From positions 1 through 37,173 of the forward strand of contig JAFSXN010000199.1 of assembly GCA_017444015.1 (NCBI GenBank): a stretch of DNA of 37,173 nt. Reading direction: 5' to 3'. The notes under the pieces were generated by a model. The model was not told the origin of the DNA and ran no database searches. It was given only the letters and a program-made list of their open reading frames with translations. The number at the start of each line of letters is the position of its first letter. Positions within the stretch are counted from its first letter, which is position 1. This document shows, piece after piece, positions 3,833 to 36,800 of the stretch. The DNA is from Lachnospiraceae bacterium. Its GTDB lineage: Bacteria; Bacillota; Clostridia; Lachnospirales; Lachnospiraceae. Made by a program: the position numbers and the translations under genes.

Positions 3833-3962
3833 CTCTGGTGTTTTGCGCGTTCTTTTCGATGTGTTTTCGTAAGAGAGATTCAGCGCAAAACCCAGAGGGG
3901 CAAAAACATCTGTTTTTCAAGATGTGTTTGTCGATAATGGATTTACGGTAGTAAATCCTATC
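3833..3962 (+). repeat. Structured intergenic repeat, family C, copy 1 (C1)
   Basis: It begins immediately after the proS stop and has three predicted stems. P1 pairs 3833-3848 with 3883-3897 (6 bp, a bulged T at 3839, then 9 bp) around a 34-nt loop. P2 pairs AAAAACATCT (3902-3911) with AGATGTGTTT (3920-3929), one mismatch. P3 is GGATTTAC, loop GGTA, GTAAATCC (3939-3958). The block 3894-3962 matches 29663-29731 at 66 of 69 positions. It ends shortly before the ackA ribosome site, so it would lie in the 5' leader of ackA in a read-through transcript. There is no U-tract after P3. Function unknown; it could be an mRNA-processing or stability element, a regulatory RNA or a non-autonomous mobile repeat. 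Confidence 0.85.
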
Positions 3963-5183: not shown

Positions 5184-5255
5184 GCGGTTTCCCGTAAGGG
5201 ACCGCGCGGAATTTTCTTGAAAATTCCGCATAAAAGAATCGCTCTGCGATTCTTC
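5184..5255 (-). repeat. Three-hairpin palindromic element, family A, copy 1 (A1)
   Basis: This 72-bp element lies just after the ackA stop. On the + strand it is GCGGT-TT-CCC, loop GTAA, GGG-ACCGC (5184-5205); a perfect 11-bp hairpin with 2-nt loop (5206-5216 with 5219-5229); and AAGAATCGC, loop TCT, GCGATTCTT (5234-5254). Read on the - strand it aligns along its length with 34608-34682 inside ileS, and in the same frame it reads EESQSDSFMRNFQ then ENSARSLTGNR, 24 codons without a stop. Strand is given as - to match the ileS copy. The last hairpin could also act as a weak ackA terminator, though no strong T-run follows. Confidence 0.85.
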
Positions 5256-5316
5256 ATTGTGTTTTATGGTGAAGTTACGATTACAAATACCGGAAATAAA
5301 AATCGGAGAATCCCAT

Positions 5317-8189: not shown

Positions 8190-11100
8190 ATGAAAGGTAA
8201 ATGCTCACTTAGCCACTCGCATACTTGCGAGTGGCGTAGCAATAAAGCAGCAGAGCCAAGCAGCCGGGCGCGCAGCCCTTGGTTGCAAAGCAACCAACGG
8301 GGCATTTCCAATGCGCAAGCTGCCCCGGCTGCCGTATCTGCCCAGGATAGCTGGGCAGATACGATGAAGGGATCATTTCAGGAGAAAGAAGGGAGAAGGA
8401 ACTGCCCGGACACAAAAAAGCTGGTCTGGCTTTCTGCTTTTGCGCTTCTTGTCGCCCTGAGCCCCCTGTTTACAAAGCTCTGCATCAACGGGCATGATCT
8501 GGAGTACCATCTGCTTCGGATCGAGAGCCTGAAGGAAGGGATCCTGATGGGCAGGCCCTTCTTAAAGGTGAACGTCCTGTTTTTCGGGGGAGCGGGGTAT
8601 GCCAGCTCTATGTTCTATCCCGATTTTCTGCTCTATATCCCGGCTCTGCTTCGGGCACTGGGGGCTTCCATCAACGCAAGCTATCATATTTTTGTGGGGC
8701 TCTGCGTCGTCCTCTGCTATCTCAGTACTTATTACTGCGGATACCGGCTGACCGGATCGAAATATGCCGGATTAATAACAGCTGTTATAATAACTCTCTG
8801 CAACTATCATATCGAGGATATCTACGTCCGGGCAGCGGTGGGAGAGTTTACGGCCTTTATCTTTGCTCCCTTTGTGATCTACGGGATCTACAACGCTCTC
8901 TATGAGGAGGCGGACCGGGTCTATCTTCTCGGGATCGGTTACGGCGGTGTCCTGCTCTGTCATACCGGGACCTTTGTACTGTGCCTGGCTTTCGGGGCGG
9001 CAGCGATCCTGTGGAGCCTTATTGCCGGATGGATTTTCGGAAGGAAGGATAAGATCTGTGCCCTGGGGAAAGCCCTGGGAAAAGTCATCGTTGCCGCGGT
9101 CCTTACGGCGGGTCTGACCTCGTTTTACTGGCTGCCTGTAATGGAGCAGCTTGCCTCGGAGACTTTTTACGTCAGCCGCCCGTGGATCGAGCCGGCGCAG
9201 GAGGCCAGACAGTTTGTAGAGATTTTTTTCTCGGAGTTTCCGTCGCTTGGAGCGCTGCTGATTTTGCTGTATGTGGTCCGAATTTTTATTCCGGGGGAAT
9301 CGGATGCTGTAACGTATGAGGATGCAGAGCAGGCGGATAAAGTATCGGATTCGGGTAATGCTGTAAAGAACCCGGATATAATTTCGGATTCAGGCAATGC
9401 TGTAAAGAACCTGGATATCATTTCAGAGTGCCCTGTGGAGAAGGATTGCGTTAAGCTGCTTCGCTTTGCGGATATGCTGTTTATATTCGGGGTGTTCTTC
9501 GCGCTCTGTTCTACAAATTTCTTTCCTTGGGAGAGGCTGGGGCGTTTTATGTCCTTTATGCAGTTTCCGTGGCGGTTTTTTTTGATGAGCTCGATCTGCC
9601 TCGGGTTTGCGGATGCGATCCTGCTGTATTTTTTAGGCAGCTATCGTCTAATCGGGAAGGTAGATGCGTACGGATTTGCGGACGATACGCGGAATCGGTA
9701 TCGGGGTCATGCAGTGACGGCAGTCCTTGTTTTGCTGGTATTTTCTCTGAGCGCGGTTCGGACGATGGAGGTAAACACCCAGGGCTACTACGATTATTCG
9801 GAGGATTATTACAGCTATACGCCCTTTACGGCAAACGTGATCGCGGGGGAGTGGCTGCCTGTTTCGGTGGAGGACAGGGGGCTTTTACTGGAACAGAGCG
9901 AGACGGCGATGGGAAGCGACGGCAGGCCGGTTACCTTTGAGCGGGTAAAGAATGAACTGAGGCTTTTACCCGACAGAGAGCTTTCCTATATCGACGCGCC
10001 GTTTGTGTATTATAAAGGATATCAGGCGGAGCTTTCAGAAGAAGGTCAACCGGATCAGGGGGCTTTAGGAAGCGGCACTCTACGGCCTCTTACGGTGGAC
10101 GGAAGCGGAAATAACGGTCTGGTAAGGGTTTATTTAGAGCCCGGAATGAAAGGCAGCATCCTTGTCCGCTACGGCGGTACTTCTTTACAGTGGCTTTCCC
10201 GGTGGATCTCGGTAGGTTCGCTGATCCTTATTCTTCTGATTTTATTTTTGAAGTTACGCAAGGCAGGGAATATAGGATCTGTTGATCATCGGCAAGGAAC
10301 AGATGAGGGCAGCGGGAAGGCTGTAAGTGATCAAAAAATGACAGGAGCCGACGCAGAAAATGGAATTAGAACTAAGGCGGCCGCTGAGAAAAAAACATCG
10401 ATGGCTTTTTGCAGTCATGGGAGGTTCAGATTCCTTGCGGTATTGATTGGATGTTCGGGGCTGCTTTCTCTGGCTGTTACCGGCTGCGGAGGAACAGTTG
10501 CGGATAGGTCCCGTCCCGATCCGGAAAGTCTTCGGGAGATAGAGGATCTGTTAGCGGGAAGGACCGTGGAGGAAGAGGCCAGGGCGGAAATAGAAAGCTA
10601 TGCTTCCCCGGAACTGTATGTAAGGGTCAACGGTTCAGGGTTTGAGCCGGAGAGTAATAAGTCGTTTACGGTAACTGCGGTCGATTGCGAGGGGATTCCT
10701 GCCGAAGAGCTGAGCTTTTCAGTGCTTTGTAAGGGGGAAGAGGTATATAGCGGCACGCTATCCGAGAGAAGTATTTCCGCGGATGGGTATGATTCCGTTC
10801 CGGGGGACAGAGCGGGAGACGAAGCCGATAATCAAAATGAGAACGAGAATATAAGCTGGTTTTACGGAGATTTTACGGAGCTTACCGATCCCGGGGAATA
10901 CTATATCAGCTGTTATATCGGGGATTTGTATGCGTCGAACAGTGAGAGCTTTCGGATCGAGAAGAATTTCTATAATAACCGATTGACGGAGCTGGTTCTT
11001 CAGTCGGAGAGGAAGCTCTCGGGGAAGGGACAGCAGTCGGAGAATGAGCCTGAGGGCAGCGTGTATACAAGAATAGCGGATCTCCTGTTGTCCTATGAAT

Positions 11101-19949: not shown

Positions 19950-19985
19950 GCTGCCGTATCTGCCCGGGTCTCCCCGGCAGATACG
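19950..19985 (+). repeat. Palindromic element, family B, copy 2 (B2)
   Basis: GTATCTGCC (19956-19964) pairs with GGCAGATAC (19976-19984); inside, GGG (19966-19968) pairs with CCC (19972-19974) around loop TCT, with one C-C mismatch. The flanks and arms match copy B1. The element is bracketed by an exact 8-bp direct repeat AAAGGAGG (19940-19947 and 19986-19993), the second copy being the gntR ribosome site 5 nt before its ATG. Confidence 0.8.
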
Positions 19986-19998
19986 AAAGGAGGCGTGC

Positions 19999-28503: not shown

Positions 28504-29634
28504 ATGAAAAAGAAACTGATTAGCGTATTACTTACGGGTGTTATGGCTGCAAGTCTTCTTGCAGGCTGTGGTGGAGCTGCTCCTGCTCCTGCGGCTGAAG
28601 CTCCTGCTGCTGCTACCGAGGCGGTAGAAGAGGTAGCTGAGACGGTAGAAGAGGCTGCTGAGGAAGTAGCTGAGGCAGTAGAGGACGCTGGCGGAGCTGA
28701 CGGCCTTATCACGGTAGGTTTTGCGCAGGTTGGACATGAGTCTGACTGGAGAACAGCTTCCACGAAGTCCTGCCAGGACGTTTTCTCAGAGGCAAACGGC
28801 TATGACCTTAGCTTTGTTGACTGTGATAACGACGAAGCAGCTCAGAAGGAAGCAGTTCGTTCCTTCATCGAGCAGGGTGTTGACTACATCATCATCGACC
28901 CCATCATCGCAACCGGTTGGGATACCGTTCTTACCGAGTGCGACGACGCAGGAATTCCTGTTATCGTTATCGACCGTACTATTGATGACTCTGACAAGTA
29001 TGTTTCCTGGGTAGGCTCCGACTTCTTAACAGAAGGTAAGGCTGCCGGCGAGTGGTTAAAGGCTTATGCTGAGAAGCAGGGTATCACCGAGATCAACGCT
29101 CTGATCATTCAGGGAACGATCGGTTCCTCAGCTCAGATCGGACGTACCGATGGATTCAACGAGATCGCTGAAAGAGAAGGCTGGACGGTTCTTGATCAGC
29201 AGACCGGTGACTTCACCGAGGCTGGCGGACAGGAAGTTATGGAGTCCTTCTGCAAATCCTATGAAGGCAAGTTCAACGTAGTAGTATGTGAGAATGATAA
29301 TGAGGCGTTTGGTGCAATGACTGCTATGGATAACGCAGGCGTAAGCTATGGCCCCGGCAATGACGTAATCCTGATCTCCTACGATGCTTGTACGGCAGGT
29401 CTTGAGAAGGTTAAGGCAGGCGGAATCACGGCTGACTTCGAGTGTAACCCTCTTGCAGCTCCTACGGTTGCCGGAGTTATCGATACTCTTGAGGCTGGCG
29501 GAACTCCCGAAGCTCAGATCCTTGTTCCGGATAACTGGTATGCGCTTGCTGACGCAATCGTTGACTTCTCTGTAGACGGCAATGCTCAGTCTATGATCGA
29601 AGTAACCGATGAGGTTATCGAGGCTCAGTATTAA
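28504..29634 (+). CDS. ytfQ: YtfQ-like sugar ABC transporter substrate-binding lipoprotein
   Basis: It is the extracellular binding protein of the transporter that follows. The signal peptide MKKKLISVLLTGVMAASLLAGC has lipobox LAGC (Cys22). A roughly 40-residue Ala/Glu/Pro linker, with repeating EEVAE-type heptads, tethers the type 1 binding fold. Blocks shared with E. coli YtfQ include VGFAQVGHESDWR, FIEQGVDYIIIDP, ATGWDTVL and IQGTIGSSAQIGR. Codons favour T-ending forms (GCT, GGT, CGT, GTT), unlike neighbours that use GCG, GGG and CGG, so expression is probably high. The gene has its own promoter and a terminator after it, which should give more binding protein than permease. Galactofuranose-type specificity is only suggested by homology. 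Confidence 0.9.
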   Translation: MKKKLISVLLTGVMAASLLAGCGGAAPAPAAEAPAAATEAVEEVAETVEEAAEEVAEAVEDAGGADGLITVGFAQVGHESDWRTASTKSCQDVFSEANGYDLSFVDCDNDEAAQKEAVRSFIEQGVDYIIIDPIIATGWDTVLTECDDAGIPVIVIDRTIDDSDKYVSWVGSDFLTEGKAAGEWLKAYAEKQGITEINALIIQGTIGSSAQIGRTDGFNEIAEREGWTVLDQQTGDFTEAGGQEVMESFCKSYEGKFNVVVCENDNEAFGAMTAMDNAGVSYGPGNDVILISYDACTAGLEKVKAGGITADFECNPLAAPTVAGVIDTLEAGGTPEAQILVPDNWYALADAIVDFSVDGNAQSMIEVTDEVIEAQY

Positions 29635-29636
29635 GA

Positions 29637-29731
29637 CTCTGATGTTTTCCGAAGGAAAACTCAGAGGGGCAAAAACATCTGCTTTTCAAGATGTTTTTGT
29701 CGATAAAGGATTTACGGTAGTAAATCCTATC
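29637..29731 (+). repeat. Structured intergenic repeat, family C, copy 2 (C2)
   Basis: It begins 2 nt after the binding-protein stop. P1 pairs 29637-29650 with 29654-29666: 6 bp, bulged T at 29643, 7 bp, loop GAA. P2 is AAAAACATCT (29671-29680), an 8-nt loop, AGATGTTTTT (29689-29698), perfect. P3 is GGATTTAC, loop GGTA, GTAAATCC (29708-29727). Relative to C1 the P1 helix is shorter and changes a G-C pair to A-T while keeping the same bulged T. A terminator follows 23 nt later. Confidence 0.85.
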
Positions 29732-33833: not shown

Positions 33834-36800
33834 ATGTACAAAAAAGTGTCAACTGATCTGGGCTTTGTAGATCGGGAGAAGGAAGTTGAAAAGTTCTGGA
33901 AGGACAACGATATCTTTAAAAAGAGTATCAAAAACCGGGAAGGCTGCGAGACCTATATGTTTTACGACGGGCCGCCGACAGCAAACGGCAAGCCCCATAT
34001 CGGTCATGTTCTGACCCGTGTGATCAAGGATATGATCCCGCGTTACCGGACCATGAAAGGCTATATGGTTCCGAGAAAGGCGGGGTGGGATACCCATGGA
34101 CTTCCGGTAGAGTTAGAGGTCGAGCAGGAGCTTGGACTGGACGGCAAGGAGCAGATCGAAGAGTATGGCCTGGAGCCCTTTATTGAAAAGTGTAAGGAAT
34201 CCGTCTGGCGCTATAAAGGGATGTGGGAGGACTTCTCCGCTACCGTTGGCTTCTGGGCGGATATGGACGATCCCTATGTAACCTATCATGACGATTTTAT
34301 TGAATCCGAATGGTGGGCGCTTAAGAAAATCTGGGGGAAGGGTCTTCTGTACCGCGGGCATAAGATCGTACCCTACTGCCCGAGATGCGGAACCCCGCTT
34401 TCTTCGCATGAGGTCGCGCAGGGCTATAAGGATATCAAGGAGCGTTCCGCGACAGCCAGATTCAAAGTAAAAGCGGGCAGCGAATTCGATATCAACGGTG
34501 AGGGTAAGACCTATATCCTTGCCTGGACAACGACACCCTGGACCTTACCGAGCAACGTTGCGCTCTGCGTCAACGCAAATGAAAACTACGCCATCGTCAA
34601 GGTCAAGGAAGAATCGCATAGCGATTCTTCTATGCAGGATTTCCAGGGAAATCCTGCGCGGTCCGTCGAAGACGGAAACCGCTATGACGGATATTATTAT
34701 ATTCTGGCAGAGGCTCTTCTGGATACCGTTCTCGGGAAGTTAGCAGTAAAGGAGCAGAAAGACAGGGAAGGTAATATCGTAACAGAGGCAAGACCCGCTT
34801 ATGAGGTAATAAGGACCGTAACGGGCAGGGACCTGGAATATACCGAATACGAGCCGCTCTATCCCTATGATGGGCCGAAAACCGAAGGTAAGAAGGGGTG
34901 GTATGTGATCTGTGACGACTATGTAACGCTTACGGACGGTACCGGTGTCGTACATAACGCGCCTGCCTTTGGTGAGGACGATTACCGGATGGGGAAGCTT
35001 TACGATCTGCCGTTTCTGCAGTTCGTGGATACCAAAGGAAATATGACTGAAGAGACGCCCTTTGCCGGTCTGTTTGTCAAGAAAGCCGATAAAGAGATCC
35101 TGGTCGATCTGGATAAGCGGGGACTGTTATTTGAGGCACCGAATTTCGAACACAGCTATCCCCACTGCTGGCGCTGCGACACGCCGCTCATTTACTACGC
35201 GAGAGAATCCTGGTTCATCAAGATGACGGCAGTAAAGGACGATCTGATCAACAATAACAATACGATCAACTGGATCCCGGAGTCCATCGGAAAGGGACGC
35301 TTCGGCGACTGGCTGGAAAATATTCAGGACTGGGGAATTTCGAGGAACCGTTACTGGGGTACGCCCCTCAATATCTGGGAGTGCGAAGCCTGCGGCCATC
35401 AGGAGTCTGTCGGCTCGAGGGAGGACCTCTACAAGCTGTCCGGAAACGAGAAGGCGAAAACCGTAGAGCTGCACAGGCCCTATATCGATGAGATCACGGG
35501 GACCTGCCCGAAGTGCGGAAAGATGATGAAGCGTGTGCCGGAGGTCATCGACTGCTGGTTCGATTCGGGGGCTATGCCCTTTGCGCAGCATCATTATCCC
35601 TTTGAAAACCAGGACCTGTTTGAAAAGCAGTTCCCGGCGCAGTTCATCTCCGAGGCGGTGGACCAGACCAGAGGCTGGTTTTACTCGCTGCTTGCGGAGA
35701 GTACGCTGTTATTCAATAAATCCTGCTATGAAAACGTTATCGTTCTTGGCCATGTTCAGGACGAGAACGGGCAGAAGATGAGTAAATCCAAAGGAAACGC
35801 GGTAGACCCCTTTGATGCTCTGAAGGAGTACGGGGCTGACGCGATCCGCTGGTATTTCTATATCAATTCCGCTCCCTGGCTTCCGAACCGTTTCCACGGA
35901 AAGGCAGTTACGGAGGGACAGCGGAAGTTTATGGGAACGCTGTGGAATACTTACGCGTTCTATGTGCTTTACGCGAATATCGACGGCTTTGACGCTGCGG
36001 AGCATAAGTTAGAATATGACAAGCTCCCCGTGATGGACAGATGGGTGCTTTCCCGCCTGAATTCCGCGGTAAAGGAGGTCGATGAGGACCTGAACCAGTA
36101 TAAGATCCCCGAGGCGGCAAGGGCTCTGCAGGACTTTGTCGACGAGTTATCTAACTGGTACGTCAGAAGAAGCCGTGAACGCTTCTGGGCAAAGGGAATG
36201 GAGCAGGACAAGATCAGCGCTTATATGACGCTCTATACCGCGCTGATTGATATCTGTAAGGCGGCGGCCCCCATGGTTCCGTTTATCACCGAGCAGATCT
36301 ATCAGAATCTGGTGCGGAAGGAAGCGGCCTTTACTCCCGGAAACGGAGACGGGGAAGAGTCGATCCATCTCTGCGATTTCCCGGAGGTACACGAGGACTG
36401 GATCGATACGGAGCTTGAGAAGAAGATGGATACGGTCCTTAAGATCGTTGTGATGGGAAGAGCCTGCCGGAATACGGCCAATATCAAGAACCGCCAGCCG
36501 GTGGCAAAGCTCTATGCGAAGGCAGCCTCTGATGAATCCGAAAAGCTGGATGAATTCTATGTGGATATCATCCGGGACGAGCTCAATGTTAAGGAAGTCG
36601 AGCTTACAGATGATGTCCGGGAATTTACGTCCTATTCCTTCAAGCCGCAGCTTAAAACAGTAGGTCCGAAGTACGGAAAGCTTCTCGGTAAGATCAAGGG
36701 GAGTCTAAGCGGTCTCGACGGAAACGCCGCGATGGATGAGCTGAATGAGAAGGGAGCCCTGACCTTTGATTACGATGGTGAAAAGGTCGAGCTGACAAAG

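Follow-up and report, generated by a model that had tools for sequence, protein, structure and literature searches.

What kind of sequence recurs at two places in a genome with both its fold and an open reading frame apparently intact? The question is raised by two short hairpin-rich segments, A1 and A2, in the 37,173 nucleotides of Lachnospiraceae DNA analyzed here (hereafter the window). A1 and A2 are copies of one 73-76 nt element that consists of three consecutive hairpins (Table 1). A1 is intergenic, starting two bases past the stop codon of the acetate kinase gene and ahead of a gene of the poly(A) polymerase/CCA type. The initial annotation of this locus had described hairpin 1 as nearly identical in the two copies and hairpin 3 as having a common GCGGT/ACCGC and AA bulge around an altered inner helix, and alignment of A1 with A2 (together with folding in the case of hairpin 1) agrees on both points. 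Hairpin 2 has the arms GCGGAATTTT/AAAATTCCGC in A1 and GCAGGATTTC/GAAATCCTGC in A2, with the three paired changes that had been reported (G-C to A-T, A-T to G-C and T-A to C-G). All ten Watson-Crick pairs are kept, and the eleventh pair of the earlier count is a closing T-G. Likewise, the peptides read from A1 and A2, EESQSDSFMRNFQENSARSLTGNR and EESHSDSSMQDFQGNPARSVEDGNR, do have 16 residues in common as claimed, but a coding role does not extend to A1, as only A2 sits in a gene (ileS).

Table 1. Features of the two element copies in the window
Feature	Position	Strand	Basis or context
Element copy A1, 73 nt	5184..5256	-	between acetate kinase gene (end 5181) and PolyA_pol-family gene (start 5317)
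A1 hairpin 1	5232..5256	-	alignment of copies, folding
A1 hairpin 2, loop CAAG, 10 Watson-Crick pairs	5206..5229	-	alignment, folding
A1 hairpin 3, AA bulge	5184..5205	-	alignment, folding
Element copy A2, 76 nt	34607..34682	+	covariance model search
A2 hairpin 1	34607..34631	+	alignment of copies, folding
A2 hairpin 2, loop CAGG, 10 Watson-Crick pairs	34634..34657	+	alignment, folding
A2 hairpin 3, AA bulge	34658..34682	+	alignment, folding
ileS (isoleucine-tRNA ligase), A2 host, single open frame, 1106 aa	33834..37154	+	
Insert in ileS, 78 bp = 26 codons, residues 258-283	34605..34682	+	absent from 108/108 aligned relatives

BLAST searches followed by covariance models R1 and R2, the latter in its sensitive setting on 7 genomes only, gave at least 36 accepted copies. 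These are divided among the genome of the window (G000) with at least 15, the congener G017 with at least 18 and the congener G020 with at least 3, all of which are lower bounds because first-look candidates were scored only in part. BLAST had located 8 copies in G000, and it was the covariance models that raised this number. G017 gave 21 matches, and the ones excluded were two reverse-strand matches that overlap other copies and one decayed copy of 73 nt (G017:C174:15786) that lies within the open frame of a PP2C gene. Among the scored candidates from the 36 further draft genomes of the genus that were searched, the other 34 congeners yielded no accepted copy; one weak and doubtful match in G011 (E=0.0052) was not counted. 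An order-wide sample of 392 genomes, searched with stricter filters and with few candidates scored, gave a match in G000 only. The distribution is patchy, with copies in 3 of the draft genomes of the genus, and as far as seen the element appears to be restricted to three related species of one Lachnospiraceae-type genus.

Several copies depart from the common form. The PP2C gene of G017 and its downstream spacer (G017:C174:15573-16170, L040) hold several copies in varied states of decay, one of which lacks most of hairpin 1 with its frame open. The copies G000:C34:28-131 (L019) and G000:C197:2054-2124 (L015) have near-identical close flanks, and the L019 copy has an additional hairpin nested inside hairpin 3. 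A 109-nt copy (G017:C64:5553-5661, L254) has 36 extra nt in hairpin 2 and is in frame in a response-regulator-like gene. The window also contains other repeats. A second hairpin-rich family (3840-3962 and 29634-29731) has 12 BLAST matches in G000, none in G017 and one weak match in G020, with 8 of 10 examined copies having no spanning open frame above 121 aa. A third palindromic type is represented by a hairpin chain at 8190-8370, before a gene that probably starts near 8364, and by a related intergenic hairpin, CGTATCTGCC..GGCAGATACG, at 19955-19985 (region 19950-19986).

The repeated palindromes have a stable single-strand fold, as do those of the gene-embedded kind exemplified by the Rickettsia palindromic elements (RPEs). 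Specifically, four copies folded as single strands gave z-scores of -5.6 to -8.5, and none of 200 shuffles of each folded as well. We analyzed covariation in an alignment of 32 copies using the three-hairpin structure (29 base pairs) and 500 shuffles. Two-sided changes are present at 18 of the 29 pairs as compared to 10.2 in the shuffles, none of which reached 18. The covariation score is 0.339 versus 0.162 when shuffled (0/500 reaching it), and 93.5% of cells are paired versus 84.2% (0/500 as high). When the structure is slid along the same alignment, the score falls to 0.038 to 0.113. Pair 63-84, for example, is G-C in 16 copies and C-G in 15. The structure is weakest at the foot of hairpin 1, where pair 3-23 is unpaired in 19 of the 32 copies. 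Thus, the covariation that the initial annotation proposed to look for among all genomic copies is real. Pairing is nonetheless not enforced at every site, because there are two decayed copies: that in rpsC of G020, with 21 of 29 positions paired and a frame that is still open, and the intergenic copy G000:C11:11825, with 22 of 29 paired and stops in all three sense frames. The fold therefore need not persist in each insertion.

The case for a mobile element is carried mainly by the sites in ileS, an M20 peptidase gene and rpsC, where, as in the RPE-like kind, the element is inserted in frame in a conserved gene for which relatives have empty orthologs. The comparison that had been suggested was with sister strains; the empty sites come from draft genomes of relatives, none of them a near-identical strain. 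In tblastn searches with IleS, matches in many relatives stop at residue 257 and restart at 284 or 285, with zero to few bases between. The insert is found in none of the 108 other rows of the protein alignment, which include the best 80 of 590 relatives and in which two rows (L065 and L123) come from a single genome, such duplication affecting at least this one. It lies after the conserved ..CVNPxETYxKVKA and before DGYTYYLAEAL, and phmmer aligns IleS to IleRS chains of known structure with a break between residues 253 and 322, a region that we take to be the CP1 editing region. Unrelated insertions also occur in this protein, one of them in L149 (JAJQIE010000181.1) at the A2 site and another of 26 aa in L069 (G032) near residue 730. 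The M20 peptidase (pepD-like) gene of G017 has a 25-codon insert, KDESQGDSLMRDFQENPARPLTRDR, that is absent from all 9 correctly read orthologs (29 loci fetched and 11 aligned, with L156 and L158 being in wrong frames). At the rpsC site G017 is empty, reading AAC AAGGAAGGGAGC, and G020 has 75 extra bp. This 25-codon insert is in none of the 27 other loci read, where two genomes have an unrelated 6-codon insert (orthologs were read by motif, 2 of 30 loci were unreadable and two loci are from one genome). The rpsC gene of G000 has 15 extra bp in frame, AAGGAAGAGAGCCGC, that resemble both ends of the element. It is plausible that this stretch is a deletion scar of the element, but not certain because of the unrelated 6-codon insert that two genomes have there. 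Finally, a G017 gene that is presumably FHA/EssC-like has three copies read in two different frames, none of which is present in 8 aligned orthologs (of 14 fetched). We left this gene out as a clean empty site because the alignment is loose around the three inserts.

When judged from open frames, Pfam and inspection, 23 of the 36 accepted copies are located in genes (9 in G000, 13 in G017 and 1 in G020). A Pfam family was assigned to 15 of 18 host proteins, with none for L017, L024 and L035. The hosts with a family include carboxylesterase, MBOAT, Nudix, an NRPS condensation domain, glycosyltransferase, an HSP70-like protein, a response regulator with LytTR, MobA-MoeA, GH28, pectinesterase (two tandem copies), M20 peptidase, PP2C and ribosomal protein S3. 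No Pfam family was reported for the FHA/EssC-like host, and we take L020 to be a BMC-like and L254 a regulator-like host. The length of the element is 1 mod 3 in all 23 in-gene copies, which are 73, 76 or 109 nt long, as compared to 8 of the 13 copies that are elsewhere or uncertain (Fisher p=0.0034), a contrast that is partly circular because frame-breaking copies make host genes harder to recognize. Such a length together with about 2 duplicated bases would add whole codons (75, 78 or 111 bases), and ileS, rpsC and the peptidase gene do each show a net gain of 75 or 78. Eighteen of the 23 copies are read in one main frame that encodes a version of KEESQSDSxMQNFQENSARPLxGNR, with 3 and 1 being read in the other two sense frames and 1 antisense. 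Random frame-breaking decay, which according to the initial annotation would speak against conservation of structure and frame, is not seen in the in-gene copies, these being recognized partly by their open frame.

A shared frame could reflect selection on the peptide or the choice of landing site. The flanks of the element resemble NRGGWNGAR, and the right-flank consensus, ARGGANGAA, is similar to the element's own left end. Each of the two bases before the element matches its counterpart after it in 20/32 copies, where chance predicts 14.6 and 10.0 (p=0.0036 and 0 of 5000 permutations; 22 positions were tested, with L019 excluded and tandem copies included). A target duplication is nevertheless uncertain because the flank matches are short and in part a shared motif, because tandem copies are in the set and because the right flank of A2 lacks the motif; the longer flank repeats in the peptidase gene and rpsC are likewise inseparable from the motif. 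In 25 genes of the window NRGGWNGAR has 42 occurrences on the sense strand, of which 28 are in the main phase and 8 and 6 in the remaining two, versus 6 antisense, and the exact string AAGGANGAA is present only twice in window genes. The observed placement of the element (18, 1 and 3, antisense 1) does not depart significantly from these motif phases (main phase p=0.12, two least open placements p=0.07, strand p=0.42), indicating that the shared frame comes mostly from the landing site. Some loss of insertions that bring stops has perhaps occurred on top of this landing bias. Across the six frames of 24 copies of 73 nt, pN/pS is 0.65 in the main frame and 0.53 to 1.25 in the others, and shows no sign of selection on the peptide. 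Thus, of the earlier claim that fold and coding potential are both preserved, the part on the fold is upheld by covariation. The part on the peptide is not, as pN/pS is not discriminating and the frame is largely explained by the target motif.

These results bear on several other explanations. One is that the element is a functional peptide module, retained as a protein domain would be, and that the fold of the DNA is a by-product. This would account for the main-frame peptide in 18 of the 23 in-gene copies, but the other two sense frames are also used, the antisense strand is used once, the main frame does not have a notably low pN/pS and the hosts have no common function, all of which makes this explanation highly improbable. 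Even less credible is a cis-acting RNA element (terminator, attenuator or riboswitch-like) that recurs by chance. The position of A1 just past the acetate kinase stop codon and the strong folding are what such an element might show, but a search of the window, with its two copies, gave no Rfam family at gathering score, the 23 in-gene copies are within unrelated genes and the species range is narrow. The paired changes themselves could have come from palindrome correction, that is, template switching between hairpin arms in replication, instead of from selection for a fold that movement requires. Palindrome correction would yield identical, perfect double changes, and the two decayed copies agree with it in showing that pairing is unenforced at every site. 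However, the same hairpin 2 variant, GTGGAATTTT/AAAATTCCAC, is exact in 8 of 15 aligned G017 copies, a recurrence that would follow from variants originating in source copies and spreading from there. Palindrome correction also leaves the empty sites unexplained, and we consider it unlikely.

An element of the REP/RAYT type, with GTAG-tagged single-stranded hairpins moved by a Y1 (IS200-like) transposase, would be mobile as well. The small palindromes, the insertion next to a short motif, the fact that no terminal inverted repeat is seen and the GTAG at the left end of 7 of 32 copies all point in this direction. On the other hand, 25 of the 32 copies have no left-end GTAG, the element has three hairpins, the majority of copies are inside genes and PF01797 has no match in the three draft carriers even though 18 of 37 genus genomes have it. 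A REP/RAYT origin is therefore very unlikely.

We conclude that A1 and A2 very probably belong to a palindromic mobile element that is non-autonomous, mostly 73-76 nt in length and built of three hairpins, and that is spreading in a few species of one Lachnospiraceae-type genus. The mobile, protein-compatible element that had been proposed from two copies is thus borne out by empty sites, patchy spread, in-frame residence in conserved genes and covariation. This family of elements has recently spread or is still mobile, and is tolerated in genes. We infer that the element would move as a folded single strand of DNA or RNA, would be recognized by an enzyme acting in trans and would insert at AAGGANGAA-like sites with duplication of about 2 or more bases, perhaps 7-9. 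Read in its main phase, the motif would give a charged triplet, (Lys/Arg/Glu/Gln)-(Glu/Asp/Val)-Glu in type, and an insertion would thus in most cases contribute 25-26 open codons in a single frame. Insertions may fall in surface segments that tolerate them, copies that cause frameshifts or stops would then be removed by selection, and imprecise deletion may remove copies while leaving short in-frame scars, perhaps such as that in rpsC of G000.

No mobilizing enzyme was found among the candidates searched (PF01797 and PF00078) in the draft genomes of the carriers. The Y1 transposase was rejected on the PF01797 results given above (0 matches in G000, G017 and G020). Reverse transcriptase (PF00078) is matched in G000 and G017 but not in G020, as well as in 13 other genus genomes; because these matches do not track the three carriers, it is not associated with the element. 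With regard to carriage by phages or plasmids, A1 as a query had no match in either, and IMG/VR had no match to one exact pattern.

The target could conceivably be chosen by base pairing, with the 3' arm of hairpin 1 as a built-in guide to the motif AAGGANGAA, an idea that we regard as distinctly doubtful. This arm, which is TTCTTTT in many G000 copies and TTCTCTY in many from G017, could pair in part with AAGGANGAA when G-T wobbles are allowed; the pairing would span few bases and is imperfect, particularly in G017. Weakness at pair 3-23, the foot of this hairpin, is in keeping with a left side of the arm that is supplied by the target. If true, the guide would direct the element to coding-strand codons of the charged Lys/Glu type, and with them to insert-tolerant protein segments, making it a guide-directed mini-element that is protein-compatible through its target rule.

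Protein-coding palindromic elements have been described in Rickettsia and Wolbachia (PMC10969869, PMC2229807), and a similar process in other prokaryotes is called conceivable in a 2024 review (PMC10969869). Searches of the open-licence PMC literature gave no report of such elements in Lachnospiraceae. The system described here, from a Lachnospiraceae-type genus, offers many relatives with empty sites, genomes with several copies each and a flank motif that explains much of the frame bias, and its rpsC site has empty, filled and possibly scarred states across three relatives. How palindromic elements enter proteins and are tolerated there thereby becomes directly testable.

Among known systems, MITEs have terminal inverted repeats, which were not seen on inspection of the 32-copy alignment; as for their target duplications, the two flanking bases match in excess and the longer repeats are inseparable from the motif. 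YPAL/RU-2 of Yersinia is similar in having internal inverted repeats, variable-size target duplications and in-frame fusions, and differs, by description, in its length of about 168 bp and its occurrence in Yersinia and relatives (PMC2229807). PARCEL is also palindromic DNA with a unit of 75 nt or 25 aa, but its units are tandem amphipathic DUF285 repeats associated with membrane proteins, whereas the element here is a dispersed insertion in unrelated genes (PMC2996958); DUF285 is absent from the families found at E<=1e-5 in the 18 host proteins. REP sequences are likewise short palindromes found genome-wide, but are 20-40 bp long, GTAG or CGTC tagged and predominantly between ORFs, in contrast to the copies here, most of which are in genes (PMC3733652).

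In mode of action, the closest kind appears to be the RPEs together with their Wolbachia and Methanocaldococcus counterparts. To our knowledge no mobilizing enzyme is known for RPEs. The palindromic coding elements of Wolbachia and Methanocaldococcus jannaschii are, by description, likewise repeats with coding potential in genes, in other hosts (PMC2996958, PMC2229807). RPEs, like the present element, are small repeated palindromes located both in frame in conserved genes and between genes (PMC2229807, PMC3767692, PMC10969869). RPEs proper, as the same sources describe them, are about 100-150 bp long, with long stem-loops and terminal inverted repeats, and occur in Rickettsia (PMC2229807, PMC3767692, PMC10969869). 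The ends of the element here, GGAAGAATCGC and ..ACCGC, are on inspection not mutual inverted repeats. Unlike RPEs, it is mostly 73-76 nt long, folds into three separate hairpins, has a purine-rich flank motif and resides in a Lachnospiraceae-type genus.
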